Shown here piece by piece: positions 562-13,831 of a stretch of 41,570 nucleotides of DNA. The DNA lies in NCBI GenBank assembly GCA_031282405.1, contig JAITDU010000028.1, forward strand, positions 1 through 41,570. The letters run 5' to 3'. The stretch is from Coriobacteriales bacterium (lineage in GTDB: Bacteria; Actinomycetota; Coriobacteriia; Coriobacteriales; UBA8131). The notes beneath the pieces were generated by a model that did not search any database, was not told the origin of the DNA, and was given only the letters and a program-made list of their open reading frames with translations. Positions within the stretch are counted from its first letter, which is position 1; the number at the start of each line of letters is the position of its first letter. The translations under genes and the position numbers were made by a program.

Positions 562-1722
562 GTGAAAACACAACAGGTTTTACAAAAATGGGCCTTTGCG
601 CTTTTGGTCGCACTCTTATCTTTGTCTTTGTTTGGATTGGGCCTCGTAGGCTGTGCCGGCACAGCCGGCAGCGACAGCGGCAGCAAAAGCACCCGTGCCT
701 CCAGCGTCGACACCACAGCGACACACAGTGTTGTCGATATGCTGGGGCGGACCGTGGAGATCCCGGCTGATCTCAGTCGTGTTATCGGCCTTGGCTCCAG
801 CAGCTTGCGGATGATTGCCTATTTGGAGCAGGTTGATAAGGTTGTAGGTGTGGAGCTGGCCGAACAGGAGGACACGGTGACGTGTGCCTATCGGCATATC
901 TACCATGAACAGTTTGCCCAGCTGCCGGTAATCGGCGAGGGCGGCTCCAGAGGCGTTACTCCCAACGAGGAGGCCATCATTCAGGCGGCCCCCCAACTGA
1001 TTATCGCCAGCATCGACAAGGACAGTGCCGATGCTCTGGCCGAAAAGACCCGAATCCCCGTGCTCTGTGTGACTCTGAGTGATATCGTCTTTGATCAGGT
1101 CTTTTATGACAACATTGAATTGGTGGGCGAGGTCCTCGGCGCTGAGGATCGGGCCGACGCGATTATTACCTATGTGCAAGAGTCTCAGGCCGACTTAGAG
1201 CAACGCAGCAGTCAGGCTGGTAGTCAGCGGCCCAGTGCCTACGCGGCCGGCATCAGTTTCAGAGGTGGTCACGGCTTTGCCGGCACCGAGGCCCAATTCC
1301 CGCCCTTTGAGGCGGTACAGGTTGTGAATATTGCCGATAGTGCCGCTACTACAGGCGCCTTTGACATCGATCTGGAGCAGATCAGTGCCGCTCAGCCCGA
1401 CTACATCTTCGTCGAGAGCAGCAATTTTGCCTTGGTTAAAGAGGATTACGACAACAATCCCGGTTACTTTGCCGGGCTTGACGCTGTACAGAAAAATCAG
1501 GTCTACTCGCTGATCTCCTATCGTTTCTATGCTACCAATGTCGAGTTGGCTTTGGCCAACTGCTACCAGGTGGGTGCCCAGGCTTATCCCGAGGCTTTTG
1601 CCGATATTGACCCCACCGCGCAACTGGACAAGATTACCACCTTCTTCCTCGGTCAGGGCTTGTCTGCCGATCTGGCGGCCGAAGGCTATAGTTTTGAGCA
1701 GGTTGATTTGAGCAAACTCTGA
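562..1722 (+). CDS. ABC transporter substrate-binding lipoprotein (iron/cobalamin/metal-chelate class)
   Basis: A 386-residue secreted lipoprotein starting at GTG 562, with GAGAAGGAG just upstream. The signal peptide has a hydrophobic run at residues 11-29 and the lipobox LVGC (acylated Cys31), followed by a Ser/Gly/Thr linker to about residue 50. The body fits the BtuF/FepB-type periplasmic-binding fold: VVDMLGRTVEIP at the start, RVIGLGSSSLRMIAYLE, then PQLIIAS and AAQPDYIFVES. It should deliver substrate to the FecCD permease and ATPase encoded convergently downstream, and it shares their candidate operator. The ligand cannot be read from sequence; a metal oxyanion, metal chelate or corrinoid are all possible. 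Its last two codons and stop lie inside a repeat (1716-1738) related to the end of the ATPase gene. Confidence 0.88.
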   Translation: MKTQQVLQKWAFALLVALLSLSLFGLGLVGCAGTAGSDSGSKSTRASSVDTTATHSVVDMLGRTVEIPADLSRVIGLGSSSLRMIAYLEQVDKVVGVELAEQEDTVTCAYRHIYHEQFAQLPVIGEGGSRGVTPNEEAIIQAAPQLIIASIDKDSADALAEKTRIPVLCVTLSDIVFDQVFYDNIELVGEVLGAEDRADAIITYVQESQADLEQRSSQAGSQRPSAYAAGISFRGGHGFAGTEAQFPPFEAVQVVNIADSAATTGAFDIDLEQISAAQPDYIFVESSNFALVKEDYDNNPGYFAGLDAVQKNQVYSLISYRFYATNVELALANCYQVGAQAYPEAFADIDPTAQLDKITTFFLGQGLSADLAAEGYSFEQVDLSKL

Positions 1723-1828
1723 GTTATATGGGCACACCTATCGACGCAAACTTCGAGTGGGCCGACCACAGAATTCTGAGTTGACTGGGCATAACTGCCA
1801 TGAAAAGCCTGAGTTATTCGGGCACAAC
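1716..1828. repeat. Three degenerate 23-bp copies between convergent genes
   Basis: Related 23-mers occur at 1716-1738, 1773-1795 and 1806-1828 (periods 57 and 33). The shared core on the plus strand is CTGAGTT, four variable bases, then GGGCAYAMC. The copy at 1806-1828 holds the last codons and stop of the minus-strand ATPase (VVVPE). The copy at 1716-1738 holds the last codons and stop of the plus-strand binding protein. I see no terminator hairpin here. Confidence 0.75.
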
Positions 1829-2722
1829 CACCGGTGTGCCGTCCAAGCGGTGTACATGCAGTGGATGGCCGTAGGTAGCCATAAGGGTTTGGTCGGTTAC
1901 TGCTTCCAAACCGCCGTAGGCTACGGTTCGTCCGTCTCTGAGCAACAAAAAGTTATCACAATAGCGTAAGGCCAGATTGATGTCATGGAGGACCAGGACA
2001 GTAGCCAGAGAACTGCTGCGGGTTATCTCTTGTACTACTCCCAGTACTTCGATCTGGTTTTTAGGATCCAGGGCGCTCGTTGGCTCATCCAAGAGCAGGA
2101 TTTGTGGCTCCTGAGCCAGGGCGCGGGCAATAAAAACCTTTTGGCGTTCGCCGCCCGAGAGTTGATCCACATAACGTTGAGCAAAGCTGTTCAAGCCAAG
2201 GCGCTCGATGACTCGTGCTACCACCGTGCGGTCGTAGTCGCTGATACCCCAGGAAATGTGCGGTCGGCGGCCCAAAAGCACCTCGTTGTAGACGCTGAGG
2301 TGCGGCACGCGTTGCTGTTGGAATACACTCGCAACCTGCCGGGCTATCTCGCGTTGACTCATATCGCGCAGGTTTTTGCCGCAGATATCCACTGTGCCCG
2401 CGCTGGGTCCAAGCAAGCCGCTGAGCAAAGAAAGCAATGTGGACTTACCGGCACCATTATTGCCGAGGATGGCCAAGAGGTTGCCGCTTTGAGCTGTGAA
2501 GTTTATCTCAGAGAAGGTTGTGCGCGGAGCATGGGGGTAGCGGTAGGTCACCTGGTTGACCTTGAGAACGACCTGTTGCTGTGCGCCATGCCTATGGCTG
2601 TGCGGAGCATTTTCATACCGATGACTATGGTAGTGATTGTGCAGCGTTCCGTCGGTATGTTCATGCAGATGCGTATGTGTGCTGCCGGCATCAGCTGCGT
2701 TGCGGTCGTGCTCTTCTCTCAT
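1814..2722 (-). CDS. ABC transporter ATPase with histidine-rich N-terminus
   Basis: A 302-residue FepC/BtuD-type ATPase. Residues 1-46 are an unusual extension with 12 histidines, including HTHLHEH, HNHYHSH and HSHRH. The nucleotide-binding domain follows: Walker A GNNGAGKST at 87-95, a Q-loop at FQQQR, signature LSGGERQ, Walker B ILLLDEPTSALD and switch His in VLHDIN. ATG 2722 overlaps the permease stop by 4 bases, so translation is coupled. His-rich tails of this kind are known from metal chaperones (HypB, CobW/YjiA) and metal transporters, so metal sensing or buffering during uptake is a reasonable inference. The ATPase core is certain; the substrate is not. Confidence 0.92.
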   Translation of the reverse strand: MREEHDRNAADAGSTHTHLHEHTDGTLHNHYHSHRYENAPHSHRHGAQQQVVLKVNQVTYRYPHAPRTTFSEINFTAQSGNLLAILGNNGAGKSTLLSLLSGLLGPSAGTVDICGKNLRDMSQREIARQVASVFQQQRVPHLSVYNEVLLGRRPHISWGISDYDRTVVARVIERLGLNSFAQRYVDQLSGGERQKVFIARALAQEPQILLLDEPTSALDPKNQIEVLGVVQEITRSSSLATVLVLHDINLALRYCDNFLLLRDGRTVAYGGLEAVTDQTLMATYGHPLHVHRLDGTPVVVPE

Positions 2723-3777
2723 CTTTTATACCCCCTGAAGAGCAGATAAAGAAAAAGTGGTGCTCCTAAAAAGGAGGTAATAGCTCCGATAGGCAGGATA
2801 ACCGGCGATATGACCATGCGGGCCAAAAGGTCAGAGGCCAACAGGATAATTGAGCCCGAAACGGCTGAGGCTGGCAGGAGGAAGCGATAGTCGTTACCTA
2901 CCAAACGGCGGGAGATATGCGGGGCGATCAGGCCGATGAAGCTGATCAGGCCCACAAAAGAGACCATGGCCGCTGCCATCAGCGAGGCCATCACGACACC
3001 CAAAATTCGCGTACGTTGCACATTTACGCCCAGACCACCAGCCGCGTCACCGCCGTTAAGTAAAGCATTGTAGTTCCAACGATTAGCAAAAAAGTAGAGC
3101 GCGCAGACAAGTCCAATACCGGCCATCAGGGCAATCTGCGGCTGGGTAGCGCGCCCCAGGTCGCCAAACTGCCAAAAGATGACCTTGGTCAACTCCAGAT
3201 CGTCGGCAAAATATTGGATGATGGTTGAGGCTCCTGCCCAAAGTGACGAGAGAGCTACCCCTACAAGGATGATGCTTTCCGGGCTGGCAATGCCCAGGCG
3301 CGAAAAGAGTAACACGACCAGACACGAGACCAAGGCACCCGCAAAAGCAAAGAGAGCTACGGTGCCCAAGCCCACCGAGGTGGCGCTGCCGTTTTCTGTG
3401 ACTGCCGGAACGATAAGCAGGATGGCAATGGTTGCGCCAAAGACCGCACCCTGAGAGATGCCTACCGTCGAAGCTGAGGCCAGGGGGTTTTCCAGGACAC
3501 TTTGCAATACCGCGCCGGCCAAAGCCAACCCCGCACCGGCGATGATAGCCGTAAGCACCCGGGGCAACCGGATAGTCTGAACAGCCGTGACATTCTGGAG
3601 CTCTCCCTGCCCAAAGAGGGCAACGATACTCTCCAAGGGGTTTATAGCCATAGCTCCGCTGCAAAGCGCCAGCAAAGCTATGAGTAGGCCAATTACAATG
3701 ATGCCGCCAATCACCCACCAATTACGCCGCTCGCGTTGACGGGCCTCCTGAGCGATGGACAGGGTGTTGTCAAGCAC
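2719..3777 (-). CDS. FecCD-family ABC transporter permease
   Basis: A 352-residue integral membrane protein with about ten hydrophobic segments, beginning after a short basic N-terminus (RQRERRNWW). FecCD hallmarks are visible: LPRVLTAIIAGAGLALAGAV near residue 70, the LENPLASASTVG region, and SFVGLISFIGLIAPHISR near residue 290, which carries the cytoplasmic coupling helix contacting the ATPase. It starts 2 bases after the fmdE stop and overlaps the ATPase start by 4 bases, so fmdE, permease and ATPase form one transcript. Members of this family move siderophores, haem, cobalamin, and in MolB-type branches molybdate or tungstate. Confidence 0.93.
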   Translation of the reverse strand: MLDNTLSIAQEARQRERRNWWVIGGIIVIGLLIALLALCSGAMAINPLESIVALFGQGELQNVTAVQTIRLPRVLTAIIAGAGLALAGAVLQSVLENPLASASTVGISQGAVFGATIAILLIVPAVTENGSATSVGLGTVALFAFAGALVSCLVVLLFSRLGIASPESIILVGVALSSLWAGASTIIQYFADDLELTKVIFWQFGDLGRATQPQIALMAGIGLVCALYFFANRWNYNALLNGGDAAGGLGVNVQRTRILGVVMASLMAAAMVSFVGLISFIGLIAPHISRRLVGNDYRFLLPASAVSGSIILLASDLLARMVISPVILPIGAITSFLGAPLFLYLLFRGYKR

Positions 3778-3779
3778 CG

Positions 3780-4436
3780 CTAAAAGCCTTCGCGATCATA
3801 ACCCTCATAGCAGTCCAAGCAAAGCAGACGATCTTGGTCCACCCGCAGGAAAGGCTCGGCTGTCTTCTCACCACAGACCACACAAGGATGCGAGGCAAAG
3901 AGTCGCGCTGTCTGGGGCAGTATATAATCCGGCGTGCTGATATCAAACAGCTGCGTATGCGGCGTGGCGAGAAGGTAGTGTTGGAACTCGGCCCGCTCCA
4001 ATCCTTGGCCTGCTTCGGGTTTTAGGCAGAGACGTACCGCTTGAAGGGGAGATGTGACTTTTTTGTCGATGCTCGTGGCCACTTCGCCGATGACTGCGGC
4101 GGCCTTGCCGATGGCTGCGGCTTGGTTGGGTGCTGCGGCTCCCGAAGTGGGGCCTTGACGCGGACGAGTGAAAAAAGAAAAAGCCATCTTGCCACGCAGA
4201 CGCGGCACGAGATTAGCCTTACCATAGGTACAGCCTAAAACCGTCTGGATGGCATCAACACCACAGGCATCGTTTTCGGTTACGCAGACGATCTCTTCGT
4301 CTGTGGCCGGCAGTCGGCTGGCATCTAACCCCAACTCGGCAATAGCCCCCAGCGATGCCGCAAAGCCAATAGCCAAGCCGGGGCATTGGTGTCCGTGAAA
4401 GGCCACTGCCTTGTGCCAGAGTTCTTCATTGTTCAT
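3780..4436 (-). CDS. FmdE family protein
   Basis: A 218-residue protein. The start is ATG 4436, chosen because AAGGAG (4443-4448 on the opposite strand) sits 6 bases before it and the family motif begins soon after; the frame continues upstream to 4541 without support. FmdE motifs are HGHQCPG (residues 14-20) and TENDACGVDAIQ followed by GCTYGKANL. A C-terminal zinc-finger-like module has CVVCG and, 18 residues later, CLDC. FmdE is named from the molybdenum formylmethanofuran dehydrogenase operon, but bacterial members often sit beside FecCD-type transporters. Being first in this operon, it may handle the imported metal or cofactor; the exact reaction is not known. Confidence 0.88.
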   Translation of the reverse strand: MNNEELWHKAVAFHGHQCPGLAIGFAASLGAIAELGLDASRLPATDEEIVCVTENDACGVDAIQTVLGCTYGKANLVPRLRGKMAFSFFTRPRQGPTSGAAAPNQAAAIGKAAAVIGEVATSIDKKVTSPLQAVRLCLKPEAGQGLERAEFQHYLLATPHTQLFDISTPDYILPQTARLFASHPCVVCGEKTAEPFLRVDQDRLLCLDCYEGYDREGF

Positions 4437-4653: not shown

Positions 4654-4702
4654 AGAGCTTTATTGCAACCGACGCAAAAAAGCAGACAGGAAGGTGACAA
4701 GA

Positions 4703-4951
4703 ATGGCCGCAATGACCGCGCGCGAGTTCAATCAATATACCGGCAGGGCCAAAACGTTGGCTCATGAGGAGCCCGTTTTTATCACCGAACGGGGCACGGT
4801 CAAGTACGTGCTGCTGAACATTGAGGAGTACGAAGCGCTGACCCAACCTACGCGCACGCTCTTTGAGTCCCTGGCAATGGACGAACGCGATTATTTTGAG
4901 TATGAGTTCCCCCGTCTTGAGGGCGATTTCAGAGAGGTCGACTTCTCATGA
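4703..4951 (+). CDS. Phd/YefM-family antitoxin
   Basis: An 82-residue antitoxin. ATG 4703 is chosen over the in-frame GTG 4694 because AGGAAGG (4688-4694) overlaps that GTG and is ideally spaced for the ATG. The N-terminal half has the Phd/YefM DNA-binding pattern (TAREFNQYTGRAK, then PVFITERGTVKYVLLNIEEYE). The acidic C-terminal tail (MDERDYFEYEFPRLEGDF) would thread into the toxin. It ends in a 4-base ATGA overlap with the toxin gene, as usual for type II pairs, and probably represses the promoter at 4632-4653. Confidence 0.88.
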   Translation: MAAMTAREFNQYTGRAKTLAHEEPVFITERGTVKYVLLNIEEYEALTQPTRTLFESLAMDERDYFEYEFPRLEGDFREVDFS

Positions 4952-5403
4952 CCGGTTATCTGCTCAACACAAATATTGTAAGCGAGCTGCGCAAGCCGCC
5001 GGCGCGTCGTCCCGTTCTCATCAACACCTGGGCACAGGAATTGAGTGAGCAACAGGCTTACCTCAGCGTCATAACGATTGTTGAGATAGAGCGTGGGCTC
5101 TTGTTGCTGGAACGAAAGGATGCCGCACAGGCACAGCCTTTACGCCGATGGTTTGAGAGAGACATCCTGGAGGGCTATGCGGAGCGTATTCTCCCTTTGA
5201 GCCTCAAAGCCGCACGCCGTGCCGCCGCCCTCCAGGTGCTCAACCCTCGGCCGCTGGTCGACACATTCATTGCCGCTACAGCGCTGGAGCATAACCTCAC
5301 GCTTGTAACCCGTAATGTAAAGGACTTTCACGACACCGGCGTGCGCGTTACGAACCCGTGGGAGCCACATATCACGACCGTTACGCTGGACATCCCTCGC
5401 TAG
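4948..5403 (+). CDS. VapC/FitB-type PIN-domain toxin with Asn at the first acidic position
   Basis: A 151-residue PIN-domain protein coupled to the antitoxin. Family landmarks are YLLNTNIVSELRKP at residues 4-17, Glu46 in TIVEIERG, Asp105 in PLVDTFIAATALEH, and TRNVKDF at 121-127. PIN nucleases normally have Asp in the first motif (LLDTN); here codon 7 is AAC (Asn), one transition from GAC. That Asp helps bind the catalytic metal, so the toxin may be weak or inactive, although the rest of the active site is intact. The length is normal. Confidence 0.88.
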   Translation: MTGYLLNTNIVSELRKPPARRPVLINTWAQELSEQQAYLSVITIVEIERGLLLLERKDAAQAQPLRRWFERDILEGYAERILPLSLKAARRAAALQVLNPRPLVDTFIAATALEHNLTLVTRNVKDFHDTGVRVTNPWEPHITTVTLDIPR

Positions 5404-5405
5404 AA

Positions 5406-5564
5406 GTATTTAACCGGGCAGGCCGTCTCCCTCACAACCAGTAAGCGTATGTGCTATGAGGCGTATTTGGTCGGGCAGGCCGTCTCGCACGCAGGCATAA
5501 CAGGGGCGCTTCCTTCCCGCAGGCCGTCTTTCTCGCCCCCCTATAAGGTGCTGATGCCGTATTT
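5406..5564. repeat. Degenerate repeat units downstream of the ECF S-component gene
   Basis: GCAGGCCGTCT occurs three times (starting at 5418, 5475 and 5519). GTATTT precedes two of them (5406 and 5463) and recurs inside the S-component 3' end (5559-5564). On the minus strand the S-component tail, AAATACGGCATCAGCAC, is echoed downstream as AAATACGCCTCATAGCAC. This fills the convergent gap after vapC. A GGGGCG/CGCCCC pair with a 25-nt loop (about 5503-5540) could form a weak terminator. Confidence 0.65.
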
Positions 5565-6278
5565 GTATTTGAGACGTTTGAGTTTGTGGGTCCAGGGCAG
5601 GTAAATGGGCACGAGGAAAATCACCGTGGCAACCGCGTGTGCCAGCGAGGACAGTGCCCCAAGTCCATAGGCCGTAAGCACCGATGCCGTGTTTATCTCG
5701 CCCAGGTACCCCACGACGAAGTAGCTATCCATAATCACGCCGTAGAGCAGAGGCGCTAAAGCGGCGTAGACAAAAACAATCGCCTTGTGCTTGAAGGCTC
5801 CGTGGTCCTCCAGCACGCCGGCACCATAACCCATAAGTCCCCAGGCATACATCTGCCACGGTGTCCAAGGGCCCTGACCAAAAAACAGGTTGGAGACCAG
5901 GGCCGCCAGAGCACCCACCATAAAACCGCTGTGTCGGCCAAAGCTCAAACCGGCCATAATCACGATGGCCGAGACCGGCTTGATATTGGGCAGTGGCGCA
6001 AAGACGATGCGTCCGGCCACCGCCAGCGTGGCAAAGACCACAATAGGCATGATGTCGCGGGGTGTCAGCCGGTCTAACTCAAGGTTGACAAAAAAAGGGA
6101 CAAGGGCAACCAGCACACTGAGTGTACTGATGAGGGCGGTTTGCTGCATACCACTGAGAGCACAGGCTATGAGCACCACGGGGACCGACAGCAGAGCCAC
6201 GGCATCCACGGCGCTTCGATGCCCGCCGCGTTTGCGTCCAGCTGTGTTGCGCTGTTTGTGTTCAATCGCGCCACTCAT
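5541..6278 (-). CDS. ECF transporter S component (probable cobalamin/corrinoid specificity)
   Basis: A 245-residue membrane protein, last gene of the riboswitch-controlled operon. After a basic cytoplasmic N-terminus (to about residue 22) there are about six hydrophobic segments. The stretch AGRIVFAPLPNIKPVSAIVI followed by GRHSGFMVGALAALVSN and FGQGPWTPWQM is typical of ECF substrate-binding subunits of the group found with DUF4430 proteins. The C-terminus is basic (LKRLKYKYG). Its start overlaps the ATPase stop by 4 bases. Cobalamin specificity is inferred from the upstream riboswitch and the transcobalamin-like partners, not from residues. Confidence 0.88.
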   Translation of the reverse strand: MSGAIEHKQRNTAGRKRGGHRSAVDAVALLSVPVVLIACALSGMQQTALISTLSVLVALVPFFVNLELDRLTPRDIMPIVVFATLAVAGRIVFAPLPNIKPVSAIVIMAGLSFGRHSGFMVGALAALVSNLFFGQGPWTPWQMYAWGLMGYGAGVLEDHGAFKHKAIVFVYAALAPLLYGVIMDSYFVVGYLGEINTASVLTAYGLGALSSLAHAVATVIFLVPIYLPWTHKLKRLKYKYGISTL

Positions 6279-7993
6279 GTCGTTATTCCCCGGGTAAGCC
6301 GCTGGGCGGCGGTGGTGTAGAACATGGTGCTGGCAAAGAAGTTTGCTGTGCTGTCCGCGCCTATCAAGGTACCGTCAAACAGCATGACACAGCGCTCGGC
6401 ACAGCGGGAGACAAACTCCAGGTCGTGGCTGACCAAGACGATGGCACAGCCCGACTGGCGCTGTTCATCCAAGATAGCTGCCAGGTCGCGCTGAGCAAAG
6501 GTATCGATGCCCTTTGTGGGCTCGTCTAAGAGCAGTAGATTCGCGCCGGTAAGCACAAGCTTGGCCAGTGCTGCCTTTTGCTGTTCGCCGCCGCTGAGGT
6601 CGAAGGGGTGTGTATCCACATAGCAGCTCAACTCCAGACGCTCTAACAAGGCCAGAGCCTCGGCGCGGGTAAAGCCAAAGCGCGGCGCAAAGCTCATAAC
6701 GTCATCGAGCAGCGTGTCTCGCAGGAATAACGTCGTGGAATCCTGCGGCAATGCCGCCCGTTTAAGCCCAGCAGCGCTGCGGATACGGCCATGCTGTGGT
6801 GTGCTCACACCGGCCAGCAGGTTGAGCAGCGTGCTTTTACCGCTGCCATTTCCGCCGACGATGCCGAGGATCTGCCCCGCTGCGACATCCAGACTCAGCT
6901 CGCGCAGGACGTACGGCTCGTCGCGATCGTAGCGATACCAGATGCGCTGGGCGCTGAGCACAGGCTCTCTTAGGTCGGTTAGCCGGGTAGTTTGAGCAGG
7001 TCCAACTGTCTTTTGAGAGGGCGGTTCATCCAAACCGGACGCGGCACTATGCCGGCGTAGCCACTGGCGCCCCTCCTTAACATCTAACGGCCACACGTCG
7101 TCCTCAGTGTGGTTGCTGTGTTGCGTGTTCTCTAATGCCAGGCGGGTAGCGTAGGGCAGTGCGGTCACAAAGGGGCTGGTAGTCCGGGCCAGATAACTTA
7201 TGAACTCCTGGGGAGAACCACAAAGCGCAAGCCTGCCTTCCTGGAGGAACAGCACGAGGTCGCTCGCCGACAGAACTTCTTCGATCTGATGCTCAATGAT
7301 GATGACGGTTATACCTAACTCCTCATTGACACGCTGCAGCAGTGCCGTAAAATCCTTTGAGGCAATGGGGTCAAGCTGTGCCGTAGGTTCATCCAGCAAC
7401 AGGAGTTTAGGCTGCATGGCAATAACAGCTGCCAGATTGACCACCTGCTTTTGCCCTGCCGAGAGCGCGTCGGTGCTCTTATCGAGCCAGGTATTAATGC
7501 CAAAAAAATTAGCAATTTCTGCGATGCGTCGGTGAATGGCCTCAGGAGCAACACTGAGGTTCTCCAGGCCAAAGGCCAACTCGGCACGGACGTTGTCCAT
7601 GACGATTTGTTGATGTGGGTCCTGCAACACAAAGCCGATGGCACTGGCCGACTGCTGCGGGTCAAGTTCATCAACACTCTCACCTTCCAACGCTACGCTG
7701 CCGCTGAACGCGCCAGAGGGACGCAACTCAGGCTTGAGGCAGCGCAAAAGCGTGCTTTTGCCCGAGCCGGTCATTCCACAGAGCAGCACACGCTGGCCAG
7801 CCGTGACGCCAAACGAGATGTCAGTCAGCGCGAGTGCTGACTCCGCCCGGGGCGTGCCTCCGGATTCCTCCTGGGGCTTTACTTGAGGTGTGCCTCCGGA
7901 CTTAACTCCGGGCTTCTCCCCCTGTTCTGTCGTTGTGACAGCATTTCCGCCCGGGTAAGCAAAACTCAGGCCCGTGACCGTGACAGCGTCCAT
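6275..7993 (-). CDS. ECF transporter energizing module, fused EcfA1-EcfA2 ATPases
   Basis: A 572-residue protein with two complete ABC ATPase domains. Domain 1 has Walker A GMTGSGKST (73-81), signature LSAGQKQ (about 173) and Walker B LLLLDEPTAQLD (about 196). Domain 2 has Walker A GGNGSGKST (about 376), signature LSGGEQQK and Walker B LLLLDEPTKGID. Residues 20-52 interrupt the first strands of domain 1 with a low-complexity insert containing SGGTP twice; the DNA shows an 11-base repeat (GTGCCTCCGGA, period about 34). ATG 7993 has AGGAGGTGAG upstream and lies inside the end of the ecfT gene (28-bp overlap). Confidence 0.95.
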   Translation of the reverse strand: MDAVTVTGLSFAYPGGNAVTTTEQGEKPGVKSGGTPQVKPQEESGGTPRAESALALTDISFGVTAGQRVLLCGMTGSGKSTLLRCLKPELRPSGAFSGSVALEGESVDELDPQQSASAIGFVLQDPHQQIVMDNVRAELAFGLENLSVAPEAIHRRIAEIANFFGINTWLDKSTDALSAGQKQVVNLAAVIAMQPKLLLLDEPTAQLDPIASKDFTALLQRVNEELGITVIIIEHQIEEVLSASDLVLFLQEGRLALCGSPQEFISYLARTTSPFVTALPYATRLALENTQHSNHTEDDVWPLDVKEGRQWLRRHSAASGLDEPPSQKTVGPAQTTRLTDLREPVLSAQRIWYRYDRDEPYVLRELSLDVAAGQILGIVGGNGSGKSTLLNLLAGVSTPQHGRIRSAAGLKRAALPQDSTTLFLRDTLLDDVMSFAPRFGFTRAEALALLERLELSCYVDTHPFDLSGGEQQKAALAKLVLTGANLLLLDEPTKGIDTFAQRDLAAILDEQRQSGCAIVLVSHDLEFVSRCAERCVMLFDGTLIGADSTANFFASTMFYTTAAQRLTRGITT

Positions 7994-8973
7994 GCCAGGC
8001 GCTCACCTCCTGCGAGGACGAAGGGGAAAAGGCAGAACACAGCGTAGGGCACATAGACCCACCAGGCCGAAAGCCCTGTGAGGTAGGGATAAAACGCGAA
8101 CTGGCCGCCATAGACTAACATGAACGCGCCGCTGAGGCAGCCGAGCAGAATGATCGTAGCCAGTGCGACTACATCGGGCCTCGTCAGGCGCATCGGCCGG
8201 TAACTGGAACGTTGCGTACTGCCAAAGCCGCGTGCGCGCATTGAATCGGCGGTGACCAGCGATTTTTCCATGCCCCATTCCATCATCTGTGAGGAGAGCG
8301 CTGAGGCATACCGGAGCTTTTGATACAGCGAAGTGCGAGAGCTTCGTGACTGTGTGGTGCCTGGGGTGCCGGGAGCTCCTGGAGTATCTGGGGTGCTTGT
8401 GCCACGTGGAACATCTGGGGTGTCTGGGGCATCTATAACGTTCGCCTCTGCCTGCTTGCTCAGCGCCGAGGTGCCCAGAGCTGTCTGGGCGTTATTGACC
8501 TGTCGAGCATGGGAGACAAGCTCGGGCACGAATACGGTTATCCGCGCGGTTATCAAAGCGGCGGTCGGCGCGACGCGCGAGAATAGCGCCAAAAACCCCT
8601 GACGCGACATCAGCCGGTTGTACGCCTGAAACCACACCAGTACACTGGCAAGCATCAATCCGGAACAACAACCGTACACAAGCGACTCCAGTGTGATAGG
8701 TAACCCACCCGCTCCGCCCAGGTAGAACAGTACGGTCAGGCCACTTGTGGAAAACAGCGCGTTGGTCGCGGTCACGATGATTACGAGTAGCAAAAGCCAC
8801 CAGGAAGCCCGCACAAAGGCCGCGGCCCCACGTACAGCCAGGGCCACCGCACAACTACCCAGCATGCCGATAATCCTGAATACGGGCTCTAAGCTAAGAA
8901 AGCACAGCGTTATCATCGCCATAAAAAAGACAAAGGCAACGGCGGGGTGATAATCGCGCAGTACCGACAGCAT
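7966..8973 (-). CDS. ecfT: ECF transporter transmembrane component EcfT
   Basis: A 335-residue T component. Hydrophobic segments occupy the first 130 residues (AFVFFMAMITLCFLSLEPVF onward) and the C-terminal third. The coupling-helix motif SMRARGFG, which contacts the ATPases, lies near residues 244-251. Between them, around residues 176-205, is an insert made of PDTPDVP and TPDTPGAPGTPG repeats that conserved EcfT proteins lack, in a cytoplasmic loop. No strong ribosome-binding site precedes ATG 8973. The 8974-9160 gap upstream holds an echo of the preceding gene's 3' end. Confidence 0.9.
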   Translation of the reverse strand: MLSVLRDYHPAVAFVFFMAMITLCFLSLEPVFRIIGMLGSCAVALAVRGAAAFVRASWWLLLLVIIVTATNALFSTSGLTVLFYLGGAGGLPITLESLVYGCCSGLMLASVLVWFQAYNRLMSRQGFLALFSRVAPTAALITARITVFVPELVSHARQVNNAQTALGTSALSKQAEANVIDAPDTPDVPRGTSTPDTPGAPGTPGTTQSRSSRTSLYQKLRYASALSSQMMEWGMEKSLVTADSMRARGFGSTQRSSYRPMRLTRPDVVALATIILLGCLSGAFMLVYGGQFAFYPYLTGLSAWWVYVPYAVFCLFPFVLAGGERLAWTLSRSRA

Positions 8974-9096
8974 CAGGCGCTCTTTTGCATCAGATACCTT
9001 TGCGTATCATCGCGTGTTCTCCTGCAAGGGCATACGACATCCTCTCTCATCATCAGACATTCTCTCGGTGTGACCATTCTCCCACATCACATGTCC

Positions 9097-9181
9097 TTTT
9101 TAGGGAGAAAACACGTAACGACTACGGGGAGAGACGGTGGGGAGAAAATCCACAGCATTTTTAAGGAGAGAGCACGTAACG
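9097..9181 (-). repeat. Echo of the DUF4430 gene 3' end (period 61)
   Basis: On the minus strand 9181-9158 contains the end of the DUF4430 gene (codons for RYVLSP, then TAA). Bases 9120-9097, 61 bp downstream, repeat it imperfectly and would read RYVFSP plus TAA. The 24-mers differ at four positions. The second copy is outside any gene. The arrangement mirrors the amrS echo at 283-376. Confidence 0.85.
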
Positions 9182-9844
9182 CCACTCGACGTAGTCGCCC
9201 TCGTGCAGTATGTACTTATCGCAGGAGTAGCGCGGTTTTGTGGAGTTGACGTAGTAAGCCCAGCCGCTTTGCGGTCCGGCTGCTCGCTCGCCTAAAGAGT
9301 TGATGGAATACACATAGCTGCCCATCGATCCGCCGTTTGCGCCCACGACCGCGCCCGAGGCCCGCAGAGCGTCCAACACTGAGGAACCCTCGTTTAGTCT
9401 GAGTGTGGCGTGAATCATAGCACCGTTGTTGGATACCTGTGCGGCCAGCGTGCTGCCGGCCTCCACTGCTGCTGTGCAGTCCACGATAAGCGTGACTGTG
9501 ATGGCCTGGGTGGCGGAGCCATCCGAGCCACCCGAGCCTTCGGAGCCGCCGTTCGTAGCGCCCGCGCCACCTTCGCCACCGGGGCCGGTGCCTTGGGCAG
9601 TGCCATTCGCGCCTGAACCGTCGCCCGAGCCACCCGCCGTCCCCTCATCAGAGGCCGACTGTTCTGCCTGCCCCGTGCCTGCAGCGGAAGTGGAACTCGC
9701 CGTCCCAGCGCTGAGAGGGGCAACATCCGGTGCCCCTGTGGAAGTGGGTAGTGCGCTGGCCAGGCCCCAGGCTCCCAGGCCAATGATTACGGCGCACACC
9801 GCGGCAACAACAGCGGCTATCCGCGGCGATACCCGCTTCAACAT
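9161..9844 (-). CDS. Surface-anchored DUF4430 (transcobalamin C-terminal-like) protein
   Basis: A 227-residue protein. ATG 9844 is chosen because AAGGTG lies just upstream and the membrane segment begins at once; the frame continues upstream to 9907. A signal anchor (residues 8-29, VAAVCAVIIGLGAWGLASA) is followed by a Gly/Ser/Ala/Glu linker (about 45-110). The C-terminal DUF4430 domain has NEGSSVLDALRASG, YVYSINSL, SGWAYYVNS and GDYVEWRYV. DUF4430 resembles the cobalamin-binding C-terminal domain of transcobalamin and intrinsic factor. Between a toroid-domain surface protein and an ECF transporter under a B12 riboswitch, it probably hands captured cobalamin to the S component. Confidence 0.88.
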   Translation of the reverse strand: MLKRVSPRIAAVVAAVCAVIIGLGAWGLASALPTSTGAPDVAPLSAGTASSTSAAGTGQAEQSASDEGTAGGSGDGSGANGTAQGTGPGGEGGAGATNGGSEGSGGSDGSATQAITVTLIVDCTAAVEAGSTLAAQVSNNGAMIHATLRLNEGSSVLDALRASGAVVGANGGSMGSYVYSINSLGERAAGPQSGWAYYVNSTKPRYSCDKYILHEGDYVEWRYVLSP

Positions 9845-9961
9845 CGTGCACCTTTCGGTTTCTTTGACATGCTGCTTCTCGCTTGTTTTTTCTTCCTGTA
9901 CGGGCACCTTTTGTGCCCTCCGGGCAGGAGATACACTAGTATACTATCTTTTGTGTTTCTC

Positions 9962-9993
9962 GGCTCTCTGTGTCTGAGCGGGCACAGAGAGCC
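9962..9993 (-). terminator. Intergenic hairpin, 11-bp stem
   Basis: GGCTCTCTGTG (9962-9972) pairs perfectly with CACAGAGAGCC (9983-9993) around a 10-base loop, between the large surface-protein gene and the DUF4430 gene. No U-run follows on either strand, so it may be an attenuator, processing site or mRNA stabiliser that sets a different dosage for the first gene. Confidence 0.5.
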
Positions 9994-10037
9994 AGAGCTT
10001 TCACACATCAGTCCAACCAGTCGGCTCTCGGTACGCG

Positions 10038-12818
10038 TCAGGGCACAGGTCGCACACCCGGCCGCAGCCTGAAGAACCACAGAGCACAGGCTCCCAGGCC
10101 AATCACGCCCACCGCTATGCCTACGATCGAGGCTACCAGCAAAGGTGCGTTGTCTACCTGCTCTTCTGCCAGCGGCTCAGCTTCTGCAGCGATGGCCTTG
10201 TCTGTTGGCAGTGCGGCAGTGGCATTTGCAGCAAGCGGCTGGATTGGCTCTTCGGCCGTGGTGGTGTCAACCACAACAAAGCTTGCTGGGTTGGCGCCCG
10301 TCGTCAACGTTTGAATTACCTCCTGCTCCTGTTCCTGCTCAAAGTATTCCTCTTCCTTTTGTTGCTCCTTTTTGGGCGTAAAGCTGCGCTTTTGAACATC
10401 GGAAAAGTTGAATAGGCCAACTGCTTCCTCTCCAGCTTGTGTACGCACCAGCGAGGCCAGAGCCATGAGGCCCTGTTGGGTGGAGTAGGCGTTAATCGCG
10501 CCGGGAGTCCAAGGGCTGATAAAGCCACCGCTTTCCGGGTCGTACCAATCGAGCAGAGCATCGTAGAGGGTAAAGCCGTTTTTGACAAAGCGGTCGTCAT
10601 AAATACTTCTACCCAGGGCATTGAGCGCGATGATTACCTGAGCGGCACTCTCGGGGCTCGGCGTGCCCCAGGAGATAAAGGCGGCTGTATGGGCATCCTG
10701 CAGCGCGCTGAGCTCACTGAGCGCTGCGTTCACTGCCACATCCACAGTCGGGTAGCCAACATTGAAGTAGGGAGCCAGCGCCTGCAACACCATGGCAGTG
10801 GTGTCGGGGTCGGCAGCGGTGCCGCCCACATAAGCCCAACCGCCGTTTCCAACCGTGTTGTCAAGCAGCCAAGCCACCAGGCCCTCGCGCAAAGTTGTGG
10901 GATTATCCAAGTCAAGATTCAGGCTGTCGAGATCCCAGAACAGCCCCGCCTGGCTCAATACCTGCGGGTCAAATCCGCCGCCGTCCAGGGCGAGCAGGGC
11001 AGAGGCCGCGCTGTTTGCGCCCGGGGAGCAAACCCACTCAAGGTCTTGCAGTGGCGCCACCAGATCCATGCCGGCAAAGTCCGTGGGATCCACCCCAAGT
11101 GCCAGAAGAGCCAGGATTACACGTTCATTTTCTGTGGGCTTGTTCGGATCCAGCTTACCGGCGTTTTCGTTGTAGGCTGTCCGAATGCTTTGTTCCAACT
11201 TGTTCAAGTAGGCATCTACCTGCGCGTCGGTCAGACTATCCAGGCGTGCCAGCGTAAAGACCTGCCATTCGTCTCCAAAGCTGAAAGGGTCGGCCTGGGC
11301 GTTAATCGTATCAGCTGTATTTGCGGCAACGTCCTCAATGCTTCCAGGCTCAGGCAGTGTCTGGTAAACTCTGACGAGGAAAGAGGTCGTAAAGTCTTGA
11401 TACGCCAACTCGACTTCCATACTACCTGCGGTATTGAGTATATCGCCGTCTGCGGGGCTTGCAGTGAGATCGTCCAGCGCAAGCCTGATAAAACTGCCAT
11501 TAGCATAGACAACAGAAACGGACAGGCCGTTGAGTTTAAGTGTATCACCCACAGCGTAGCGCGTCTGTGTGGGTTTGGATGCAATGGTCAGACCCGTAGA
11601 GTCAGCTGGCTGAGCCGGTGGCGGCTCTTCCGCATCATAGACCTCTACGAAGAGCCACGGAGAGATAACGGGCAACCACTCCGAATTGCCATCGCCGGTG
11701 GCTGAGAGGATATAGGTGCCGGGTGTATCAAAGCTCACGGAAAACTCGCCCCACTCATTGCTGACTGCAACAGGGTCGCTAAAGTAACCCACGCCTGAGT
11801 CGGGGTCAAGCTCAACGGTGACAATGTCTGTGGAATCTATGATATCGTCCCAAGCGCCCCACTCGCCCCAGACATACGCAAAAATCCCGTAGAGACTTAA
11901 GCTCAGCTTTTCGCCGGCCGCTACCTGGACACGGTCAACCCGGGAGTCATCCTGCTCAAACCAGGCCCGCACGTCCATTCCCCAGTCCTCTTGAAGCGAG
12001 ACAAGCTCCACCAGGCTCCAGTCACTGAGTGGATAATCCCCGGCAGCCACGCCGGCCAGTGCATCGTTGACGATATAGATCATGTTTGATCCGGCGTCCA
12101 TAAAATTCATAATCCATCCGTCGTCGCTAACCTCAAGGGCAGCGTGGATGTCCTCAGGGTCATCGCCAAAAATCGGGATATGTGCGGCCACGATGGCATC
12201 AAGGGCCGTAACCGTGGTGCCCGCGTAGCTGTCGGTATAACCATATTGCTCGGAGAGGTCCGAGGCCACTTCAAACTTCTGGCGGGCAATCCAGAATCCG
12301 GATGAGTCGGCCTGGTAGCTGATAAAGATGTTTGCGCTTGTTGGATTGGGCGCTGCTGTAGCCACAAGTTCGGCAGCGGCATCAGCAGTGGCCTCAAGGT
12401 TCGCCGAGTCAGCCCACTCGGTTTGGCTTGCGTCGTCTGGCCCCAACGCGAGGCCAGCGTCAAGCTGCGGCTGCTCGCCCGCCTCAGGCGTGTTAGTCTC
12501 ACCAGTGTTGACTTCAGCGTTTGTCTCAGACGTGCTTGTCTCTCCAGGGTCGACCTCAGACGCGCTTGTCTCCCCAGTGGGCGCTTCTGAGTTGGACTCG
12601 GACGCGTTCGGCGCGTTCGTTTCGCTGGTGTTGATGCCGCTTGCAGCTGCGCTCGGCGCTGGTGTTTCGGGGTCGCTCGCAAAGATGGCCGGTGCAGGCA
12701 CCAGGGCAAACATCAGCAAAAATGCCACCATAAGGCGACCGAAAGCCGAGAGGGCGCGAGGCACACTCAAGGCTTGCGGGCAGGGCAGTGGGTGTGAACG
12801 ATGGTTTTGACTGCTCAT
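10038..12818 (-). CDS. Large surface protein with Ig-like and intrinsic-factor-like toroid domains
   Basis: A 926-residue protein, first gene of the cobalamin operon. ATG 12818 is chosen because the frame upstream (to 13091) is the riboswitch itself and a signal peptide starts here (GRLMVAFLLMFALVPAPAIFA, about 28-48). Then come a Ser/Thr/Glu/Asn repeat stretch of SETN and GETS units (60-110), a region with DUF4430-like spacing (about 165-370), an Ig-like domain (LTIASKPTQTRYAVGDTLKL onward, about 395-475), and a prenyltransferase-type alpha/alpha toroid (500-790) with GNGGWAYVGG and PDTTAMVLQALAPY. A charged KEQQKEEEYFEQEQEQE segment and a C-terminal membrane anchor (about 895-916) follow. 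Toroid plus DUF4430-like parts is the layout of animal intrinsic factor and transcobalamin. Cobalamin capture is a strong inference. Confidence 0.82.
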   Translation of the reverse strand: MSSQNHRSHPLPCPQALSVPRALSAFGRLMVAFLLMFALVPAPAIFASDPETPAPSAAASGINTSETNAPNASESNSEAPTGETSASEVDPGETSTSETNAEVNTGETNTPEAGEQPQLDAGLALGPDDASQTEWADSANLEATADAAAELVATAAPNPTSANIFISYQADSSGFWIARQKFEVASDLSEQYGYTDSYAGTTVTALDAIVAAHIPIFGDDPEDIHAALEVSDDGWIMNFMDAGSNMIYIVNDALAGVAAGDYPLSDWSLVELVSLQEDWGMDVRAWFEQDDSRVDRVQVAAGEKLSLSLYGIFAYVWGEWGAWDDIIDSTDIVTVELDPDSGVGYFSDPVAVSNEWGEFSVSFDTPGTYILSATGDGNSEWLPVISPWLFVEVYDAEEPPPAQPADSTGLTIASKPTQTRYAVGDTLKLNGLSVSVVYANGSFIRLALDDLTASPADGDILNTAGSMEVELAYQDFTTSFLVRVYQTLPEPGSIEDVAANTADTINAQADPFSFGDEWQVFTLARLDSLTDAQVDAYLNKLEQSIRTAYNENAGKLDPNKPTENERVILALLALGVDPTDFAGMDLVAPLQDLEWVCSPGANSAASALLALDGGGFDPQVLSQAGLFWDLDSLNLDLDNPTTLREGLVAWLLDNTVGNGGWAYVGGTAADPDTTAMVLQALAPYFNVGYPTVDVAVNAALSELSALQDAHTAAFISWGTPSPESAAQVIIALNALGRSIYDDRFVKNGFTLYDALLDWYDPESGGFISPWTPGAINAYSTQQGLMALASLVRTQAGEEAVGLFNFSDVQKRSFTPKKEQQKEEEYFEQEQEQEVIQTLTTGANPASFVVVDTTTAEEPIQPLAANATAALPTDKAIAAEAEPLAEEQVDNAPLLVASIVGIAVGVIGLGACALWFFRLRPGVRPVP

Positions 12819-12828
12819 CTTTGCTGCA

Positions 12829-12845
12829 CCCCCTTCGCGGCAGGG
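12829..12845 (-). promoter_or_regulatory. Possible ribosome-binding-site sequestering hairpin
   Basis: On the minus strand CCCCT pairs with AGGGG across a 7-base loop. The 3' arm is the purine-rich AAGGGGG that serves as ribosome-binding site for the ATG at 12818. It lies between the riboswitch (ends about 12954) and the start codon, so it could be the expression platform if the switch controls translation. Confidence 0.4.
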
Positions 12846-12953
12846 GCGGACAAAGGACGTGGTCGAGAGTGCCGGACGTGCCAGCCAACAGAATAACGCA
12901 TAGCCAAACTCCAATCTCGCCGTGCTCGCAGCGACATAAAGGGATAGAGAGGC

Positions 12954-13103
12954 TGTTCTGCCGGTATCCTGACTTACGCCCCGTTGTGCGCAGGCGATTA
13001 CAGTGGCGGCACCGCGCGGGATTTGCACCCGCTTCCCCGAAAACACCGTACCCTCAAACGACGAAACACCCGTGTCGTTTAAGGCAGGCATTTACACAGA
13101 ACA
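12954..13103 (-). promoter_or_regulatory. Cobalamin riboswitch
   Basis: Minus-strand RNA contains the conserved elements in order: GGGGAAGCGGGTGCAAATCC, then GCGCGGTGCCGCCACTGTAA (with the B12-box GCCACTG), then AAGTCAGGATACCGGC. A P1 helix closes it: TGTTCTG (13103-13097) pairs with CAGAACA (12960-12954). It precedes the surface-protein gene and sits behind a strong promoter. By family knowledge, adenosyl- or other cobalamin binding lowers expression of the downstream uptake operon. Confidence 0.95.
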
Positions 13104-13115
13104 CCTATGCGCTGC

Positions 13116-13144
13116 ATTATAGTATTTGGTTAAGCTGATTGCAA
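13116..13144 (-). promoter_or_regulatory. Sigma-A-type promoter of the cobalamin operon
   Basis: On the minus strand TTGCAA (13144-13139) and TATAAT (13121-13116) are separated by exactly 17 bp. Transcription would begin near 13110-13105, at the 5' edge of the riboswitch. This is one of the best-formed promoters in the window. Confidence 0.8.
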
Positions 13145-13195: not shown

Positions 13196-13459
13196 CTACC
13201 GATAAATATTGCTCCTATGGCCGATCTCAAGAACCAGGATAACAAGTTCGGCATCTCTGATCTGGCAGATTAACCGATAGCCACCCACCCGGTAGCGCCA
13301 CAGTCCTTTGTACTTCTTTCCTTGCAGGGCAACGCCATCAGTGCGAGGATGCTCGCGGCGCGCCATTCTTTTGGCCCACACATCGATTCGTCGTTGGGTT
13401 GTTACCTCAAGTTTCGCTAATCTCTTAAGCGCCCGTTCGGACCAGATTACACTCCACAT
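13196..13459 (-). CDS. RelE/ParE-superfamily toxin
   Basis: An 87-residue protein. ATG 13459 overlaps the antitoxin stop (TGATG), so the pair is coupled; the frame further upstream lies within the antitoxin gene. Features are MWSVIWSERALKRLAKL, a basic middle (AKRMARREHPR), and the RelE core LWRYRVGGYRLICQI with VLEIGHRSNIYR at the end. RelE toxins cleave mRNA in the ribosomal A site. Standard length and no damaged motif. Confidence 0.93.
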   Translation of the reverse strand: MWSVIWSERALKRLAKLEVTTQRRIDVWAKRMARREHPRTDGVALQGKKYKGLWRYRVGGYRLICQIRDAELVILVLEIGHRSNIYR

Positions 13460-13701
13460 CAGCGCAGGCCAATATGCAACATCGCATCCTCGTGTGAGTA
13501 CGTTTTCTGTTTGCCGGCGGCAATGTCGTCGAGGACTTTTTCTGCGATGTCGGCATCTTCCCACCGTGCTACTCTGTCCATCAAAGTCGTCCGGATCAAT
13601 TCAGAAATAGATTGGCCTTGAAAGTCTGCGAAATCAGAGAGCGCTGCGTAATCTGATGAGGAAAAACGCACCTCGACCCGACGATCCTTTACCGTATCCA
13701 T
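13459..13701 (-). CDS. RelB/DinJ-like ribbon-helix-helix antitoxin
   Basis: An 80-residue protein. ATG 13701 is chosen because GAGGTGAGA lies before it and the ribbon-helix-helix strand starts directly (RRVEVRFSSSDYAALSDFA); the frame continues upstream over the operator. The SISELIRTTLMDR segment forms the second helix of the DNA-binding fold. The C-terminal half (DIAEKVLDDIAAGKQKTYSHEDA) is the usual toxin-binding and degradable part. It should autorepress through the palindromes at 13738-13761. Confidence 0.88.
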   Translation of the reverse strand: MDTVKDRRVEVRFSSSDYAALSDFADFQGQSISELIRTTLMDRVARWEDADIAEKVLDDIAAGKQKTYSHEDAMLHIGLR

Positions 13702-13737
13702 TCTCACCTCTTTATCAGTGTATGGTGTACAAGTTAC

Positions 13738-13761
13738 GTACAATTGTACGGTAATTGTACC
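13738..13761 (-). promoter_or_regulatory. Tandem palindromic operators of the RelB-type antitoxin
   Basis: Two adjacent 12-bp palindromes lie 37 bp before the antitoxin start: GTACAATTGTAC (13738-13749, perfect) and GGTAATTGTACC (13750-13761, near-perfect). Shared AATTGTAC cores 12 bp apart fit cooperative binding of ribbon-helix-helix dimers. A third half-site-like GTGTAC lies at about 13725. Confidence 0.65.
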
Positions 13762-13831
13762 GCATATAGTCCGCCTCGTCAATGTGTGCACATGGGGCGC
13801 CCCGGTTCCTTTACCCCATTATGTCAATGTA

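Follow-up and report, generated by a model that had tools for sequence, protein, structure and literature searches.

An operon that very probably serves to capture and import corrinoids occupies positions 5541-13144 on the minus strand of the window, by which we mean the whole stretch of DNA analysed, 41,570 nucleotides from a gut-type Coriobacteriales bacterium (class Coriobacteriia, phylum Actinomycetota; GenBank assembly GCA_031282405.1, contig JAITDU010000028.1). All of its parts are present in one orientation, in the order promoter-like site, cobalamin riboswitch, 926-amino-acid (aa) surface protein, smaller DUF4430 surface protein, and the EcfT, EcfA1A2 and S components of an energy-coupling factor (ECF) transporter. 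The original prediction had described this set as a single operon with corrinoid as its likely cargo. Every part was found, computation supports its reading as one operon, and the riboswitch together with a CbrT-like S component lends computational support to the cargo as well. The reading as a whole, in which corrinoids would be captured at the cell surface and then imported by the ECF transporter, is in our estimate probable, and the narrower proposal that two domains clamp the corrinoid in this genome is modestly favoured.

Capture of vitamin B12 outside the membrane by Gram-positive gut bacteria is poorly known. The operon offers a set of regulated genes, a candidate pair of binding proteins and a relative of a characterised B12 ECF transporter, and it bears on the origin of animal intrinsic factor and transcobalamin. 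Its features are as follows.

13116-13144, minus strand: predicted sigma-70-like promoter (-35 TTGCAA, 17 nt, -10 TATAAT; 10 of 12 consensus match)
12942-13081, minus strand: cobalamin riboswitch aptamer, RF00174 (53.6 bits against a gathering score of 31.5, E 1e-10)
12827-12849, minus strand: predicted hairpin that would bury AAGGGGG, the first gene's ribosome-binding site (minimum-free-energy fold)
10038-12818, minus strand: open reading frame for the 926-aa surface protein, with signal peptide, acidic linker, DUF4430-like domain, Ig-like region, Big_3 domain, toroid and C-terminal transmembrane anchor
11994-12212, minus strand: DUF4430-like (transcobalamin-type beta-grasp) domain, aa ~203-275 (hhalign against the DUF4430 profile of the small proteins, 97.0% probability, E 1e-10)
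11367-11576, minus strand: Big_3 Ig-like domain, aa 415-484 (PF07523, E 9.1e-6)
10374-11306, minus strand: alpha/alpha toroid, aa ~505-815 (profile search, AlphaFold2 model and fold search)
10086-10142, minus strand: C-terminal transmembrane anchor (hydropathy peak at aa 893-911, followed by RLRPGVR)
9161-9844, minus strand: second surface protein, with N-terminal transmembrane or signal segment, Gly-rich linker and C-terminal DUF4430 domain (PF14478, E 9.8e-15)
7966-8973, minus strand: EcfT transmembrane coupling component (family profile)
6275-7993, minus strand: fused EcfA1-EcfA2 ATPase (two ABC_tran domains; TIGR04521/TIGR04520 best)
5541-6278, minus strand: CbrT-like S component (phmmer 6FNP_A, E 2e-9; family profile)

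The promoter-like site ends 35 nt ahead of the riboswitch, and the transporter genes overlap one another (EcfT/EcfA by 28 nt, EcfA/S by 4 nt). The arrangement is not chance, because it is seen again in dozens of genomes. The order DUF4430, EcfT, EcfAA, S is found around the S genes of Coriobacteriia, Clostridia and Bacilli alike.

A transporter related to the cobalamin importer CbrT

When the S component was compared by phmmer with all sequences in the PDB, CbrT (6FNP) was recovered at the E value of 2e-9 given above and the remaining matches were at chance level. A profile of the S family sharpens this result, reaching CbrT (6FNP_A) at E 1.6e-17 over 175 positions, with the next S component, 4HZU_S, at 2.7e-4. 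Together with its ECF module, CbrT takes up both cobalamin and cobinamide (Santos et al. 2018, PMC5997447). The S component of the window and its family carry about 50 extra N-terminal residues with two further hydrophobic segments, which CbrT lacks.

The remaining transporter components are also recognisable. EcfT has no Pfam match of its own, and a profile built from ten operon EcfT proteins, five of which match CbiQ, finds the solved EcfT structures 5D3M/6FNP at E 8.5e-13. Walker A and B motifs are present in both halves of EcfA1A2. Low-complexity inserts rich in Pro, Thr and Gly interrupt EcfT (8333-8430) and EcfA1 (7850-7930), and most relatives are without them.

At nine related loci a single open reading frame of 812-1043 aa, free of runs of N, joins EcfA1, EcfA2 and S, with extra hydrophobic segments in some of the linkers (L049:4548-7424, L050:4567-7368, L066:6157-9288, L067:4695-7781, L068:7280-10084, L129:7706-10657, L150:2584-5244, L164:7985-10735 and L166:5602-8040). 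Such a covalent ATPase-S fusion would bind the S component to its own module, in contrast to shared ECF modules. A single EcfT-EcfA-S reading frame in Gordonibacter (L098) was rejected, since a run of N had produced it.

The riboswitch and proposed control of the operon

The RF00174 aptamer is the single copy in the 2.0-Mb host genome, which is 88% complete. Downstream of it, the hairpin at 12827-12849 pairs CCCCU with the ribosome-binding site of the first gene. No strong terminator is predicted in the stretch between aptamer and ATG, and the stability of the whole folded region does not exceed that of shuffled sequences. The hairpin is a possible translational expression platform, and its pairing together with the lack of a strong terminator suggests that control would be exerted on translation.

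Association of the riboswitch with these genes extends well beyond the window. Among the RF00174 matches near S genes, 17 of 19 lie upstream on the same strand, the window included, with 13 above the gathering score. In a set of Bacilli and Desulfosporosinus loci the aptamer precedes the first surface gene by no more than about 450 nt in all seven cases. Two of these seven, both from Desulfosporosinus, carry tandem cobalamin riboswitches ahead of the operon (L123:1124-1836 and L136:982-1547). Most members of a second, mixed set also have RF00174 upstream (L088, L110, L119, L126 and L145), and L103 has a related adenosylcobalamin aptamer.

A host that probably uses corrinoids

The host genome encodes one corrinoid protein, of MtbC/MtgC type. 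At the completeness stated above, it contains no cobB above the cut-off, one tetrapyrrole methylase (TP_methylase) protein where corrin synthesis needs several, no CobA-type adenosyltransferase and no class II ribonucleotide reductase (NrdJ). By the markers tested, the host appears to lack synthesis of the corrin ring, a pattern that fits a corrinoid user without its own synthesis.

The two surface proteins

The reading frame of the large protein starts at an ATG (12818) preceded by the ribosome-binding site AAGGGGGTG. Its linker is rich in Glu, Thr and Ala, and its hydrophobic peaks lie at aa 29, within the signal peptide, and at aa 893. In the small protein, whose DUF4430 domain spans 9176-9388 and which has an alternative start at GTG 9907, the sole hydrophobic segment is N-terminal and peaks at aa 9. 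Because such hydrophobic segments are present and no LPXTG motif was found when the 926-aa protein was searched for one, both proteins are read as membrane-anchored.

A Pfam scan of the 926-aa protein reports Big_3 only, with the toroid and the DUF4430-like part below detection, and NCBIfam is likewise blind to them. Family profiles were needed for these two domains and for EcfT, all three of which Pfam and NCBIfam alone miss. A 22-member toroid profile finds cyclase and prenyltransferase toroids, down to E 3e-23. The toroid relatives match PF00432 (Prenyltrans), and two members also match the eukaryotic family PF01122 (Cobalamin_bind), at best with 9.9e-5; the toroid of the 926-aa protein itself has no PF01122 match. 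AlphaFold2 models the toroid with predicted local distance difference test (pLDDT) values mostly above 90, and in the fold search prenyltransferases and cyclases come out on top, with transcobalamin (4ZRP) and intrinsic factor (3KQ4) also below 1e-3. Two of six relatives of the DUF4430-like segment match PF14478 (best 1e-5), and with the profile-profile result this confirms the DUF4430-like part of the large protein.

These results modify an earlier picture in which the toroid and C-terminal domains of intrinsic factor had been parted onto separate anchored proteins. Domains like those of intrinsic factor and transcobalamin do lie on two surface proteins, but the division is incomplete, as the 926-aa protein carries a DUF4430-like domain besides its toroid. 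The Ig-like insertion and large size, which had been thought distinctive, turn out to be ordinary, because relatives of 1400-2290 aa exist and Big_3 is also present in L047 and L152. Members of PF01122 have a toroid followed by a beta domain in a single chain; here the constant DUF4430 domain is on the second protein. The window proteins would work like intrinsic factor and transcobalamin but, by domain content, are not members of their family.

In G000:C22:16331-16546 (L170:7867-8559) a second DUF4430 protein, 230 aa long, is encoded directly before dnaX, which it overlaps, and near recR; no ECF operon was seen close to it in that stretch.

Structural likeness to animal B12 carriers

A DUF4430 profile searched against PDB sequences gave only a weak match to transcobalamin-1 (4KKI, E 0.19), and for this reason a structural model was used. 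The locus chosen was that of Paenibacillus woosongensis (L155), because there the toroid and DUF4430 domain are directly fused. The AlphaFold2 model of this 371-aa fusion has a pLDDT of 83.5 and a predicted template modelling (TM) score of 0.68. When the model is compared with the PDB, the top 15 matches all belong to transcobalamin, haptocorrin or intrinsic factor, with E values of 3.4e-9 to 1.2e-6 across both domains, and the beta domain of the model superimposes on that of transcobalamin (5NO0) with a TM score of 0.77. As modelled, each domain of the fusion resembles the animal carriers and the two come in the same order; the likeness covers the domains and not their closed arrangement.

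Conservation among relatives

In 60 related genomes, the S component was found in 40, a DUF4430 domain in 45, an RF00174 match in 40 and a relative of the 926-aa protein in 17. A scan of contigs confirmed at least 583 relatives, and the locus counts given here use 80 of these plus a first set. The 80 relatives span Coriobacteriia (Olsenella, Slackia, Gordonibacter, Adlercreutzia, Collinsella), Clostridia (including Desulfosporosinus) and Bacilli (Paenibacillus, Oceanobacillus). Closest among the matches listed is L087, a contig of a metagenome-assembled Coriobacteriia genome.

The large proteins of relatives carry up to four DUF4430 domains. At one locus (L086), DUF4430-like segments, a toroid and a DUF4430 domain are joined in a single 862-aa chain followed by EcfT, so that parts divided between two proteins in the window are here naturally fused.

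Proposed mechanism and alternatives

When corrinoids are scarce, the riboswitch would leave the mRNA translatable. The 926-aa and small DUF4430 proteins would be exported and remain tethered to the membrane, where the toroid and beta-grasp (DUF4430) domains may hold a corrinoid between them, as transcobalamin and intrinsic factor do with their alpha and beta domains. The CbrT-like S component would then receive the corrinoid, whose import EcfT and EcfA1A2 would power through ATP hydrolysis. We extend this scheme tentatively, as a possibility of somewhat less than even standing, to a clamp shared by two proteins in this lineage, in which a wall-spanning toroid cup and a short tethered beta-grasp lid would close and open on each other and in this way carry the corrinoid across the wall until it reaches the S component. 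Relatives with multiple DUF4430 domains would in that case be multi-site relays, and the animal carriers a soluble, one-chain offshoot.

Several observations weigh against capture by these surface proteins. The domains of the L155 model are oriented unlike those in the crystal structures (root-mean-square deviation ~17 Å), and the overall TM score is low, about 0.4, because the angle between the two domains differs. AlphaFold2 gave no confident structure for the N-terminal half of the large protein (pLDDT <50). In both profile and fold searches the toroid alone is no closer to transcobalamin than to prenyltransferases and cyclases, and it is not diagnostic by itself because those enzymes rank first in the fold search. 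Seven Coriobacteriia loci from isolates show no riboswitch above threshold, several of them being cut before the start of the operon. Finally, Collinsella/Enorma-type loci (L131, L132, L138, L141, L157, L160) keep S, EcfA and EcfT without a DUF4430 or toroid gene, so transport does not depend on the surface proteins in every case. The same loci provide a natural comparison for the contribution of the surface proteins.

The alternative that survives best accepts corrinoid import and makes the large protein mainly an adhesin or wall spacer, with only the small DUF4430 protein binding the corrinoid and feeding the S component. The small protein is indeed the more constant of the two, adjoining EcfT at 56 of 66 loci in the 80-relative scan and 27 of 34 in the first set, with some of the misses being counting artefacts (for example L143, L150, L158, L073 and L080). 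Among loci with 5 kb of upstream sequence, a large DUF4430/toroid protein was detected in at least 31 of 53 and at least 9 of 23, counts that are lower bounds because long genes often leave the stretch. Ig-like domains and long acidic linkers are, moreover, typical of wall-spanning proteins. Nevertheless, the fusion modelled from L155 resembles transcobalamin across both domains, the one-chain protein of L086 unites the same parts, and it is the large protein that comes first after the riboswitch. We consider this alternative unlikely, though far from remote.

That the system transports something else (cobalt, heme, flavin or a different vitamin), with the riboswitch only reporting cofactor state, is very unlikely. 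CbrT, rather than RibU or a cobalt system, is the best and specific solved relative of the S component, and riboflavin was rejected as cargo despite the riboflavin-type Pfam label that the component bears. ECF operons for cobalt are often controlled by B12 riboswitches too. However, cobalt would be of little use for B12 because corrin synthesis appears absent, and cobalt uptake was likewise rejected. Heme is the cargo of an ECF transporter of S. lugdunensis (PMC7299338). DUF4430 and toroid, on the other hand, are the domains of animal cobalamin carriers. Most improbable of all is that chance has placed the toroid, as a terpene cyclase or prenyl-binding enzyme acting outside the cell, beside a B12 importer: searches with its profile and with its model do find squalene-hopene cyclase and prenyltransferases, but it is secreted, is repeatedly fused to DUF4430 and placed in B12 operons, and has two family members that match Cobalamin_bind.

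Relation to known systems

Surface capture of this kind is not a new idea, because such systems, which are widespread among Gram-positive bacteria, were already described by Burroughs, Balaji, Iyer and Aravind (2007; PMC1796856). In the parts of that paper drawn on here, a transcobalamin-like SLBB clade of low-GC Gram-positive bacteria is fused to toroids and surface-anchored, its operons include a paralogous second SLBB protein, CbiO and CbiQ, and its hosts are without B12 synthesis; scavenging of B12 and transfer to animals were proposed. The window shares with those systems the SLBB/DUF4430 domain, toroid, signal and tether, second paralogue, CbiO/CbiQ and, by markers, lack of B12 synthesis. 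It differs from that account, as framed there on low-GC Gram-positives, in coming from Coriobacteriia (Actinomycetota) and in having a CbrT-like S component and a riboswitch. The 2007 prediction is apparently untested, and the literature searched contained no experimental study of such surface proteins, although studies beyond it could exist. The present analysis places the S component in the CbrT group, shows the link with the riboswitch across phyla, and adds evidence from fusions and the model.

Like animal intrinsic factor, transcobalamin and haptocorrin, the system combines a toroid with a beta-grasp domain, and the fused L155 relative matches those proteins across both. The animal carriers, however, are soluble and taken up by receptors, whereas the window domains are on two proteins predicted to be membrane-tethered, with extra DUF4430-like and Ig-like domains before the toroid. 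The S component and EcfT are related to those of ECF-CbrT from Lactobacillus delbrueckii (6FNP, PMC5997447), from which the window differs in its fused EcfA1/EcfA2, a module encoded in the same operon, the N-terminal extension of S and the accompanying surface proteins. In the BtuG/BtuB-type capture of Bacteroides (PMC6143338) a surface protein similarly takes B12 before the transporter. That system has other folds, an outer membrane and TonB-dependent transport.

Neighbouring features

A perfect 11-bp inverted repeat lies between the two surface-protein genes (9962-9993, minus strand), with no T-run behind it on the operon strand. Toxin-antitoxin pairs of Phd/PIN and ParE/DUF6290 type stand on both sides of the operon, at 4694-5403 and 13196-13791. 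The adjoining region at 562-4436 carries genes for a FecCD/BtuCD-type ATP-binding cassette transporter (a binding protein, a permease for which the BtuC model is best, and an ATPase) together with an FmdE-family protein, and this system could be a second importer, for corrinoid, iron or molybdate/tungstate.

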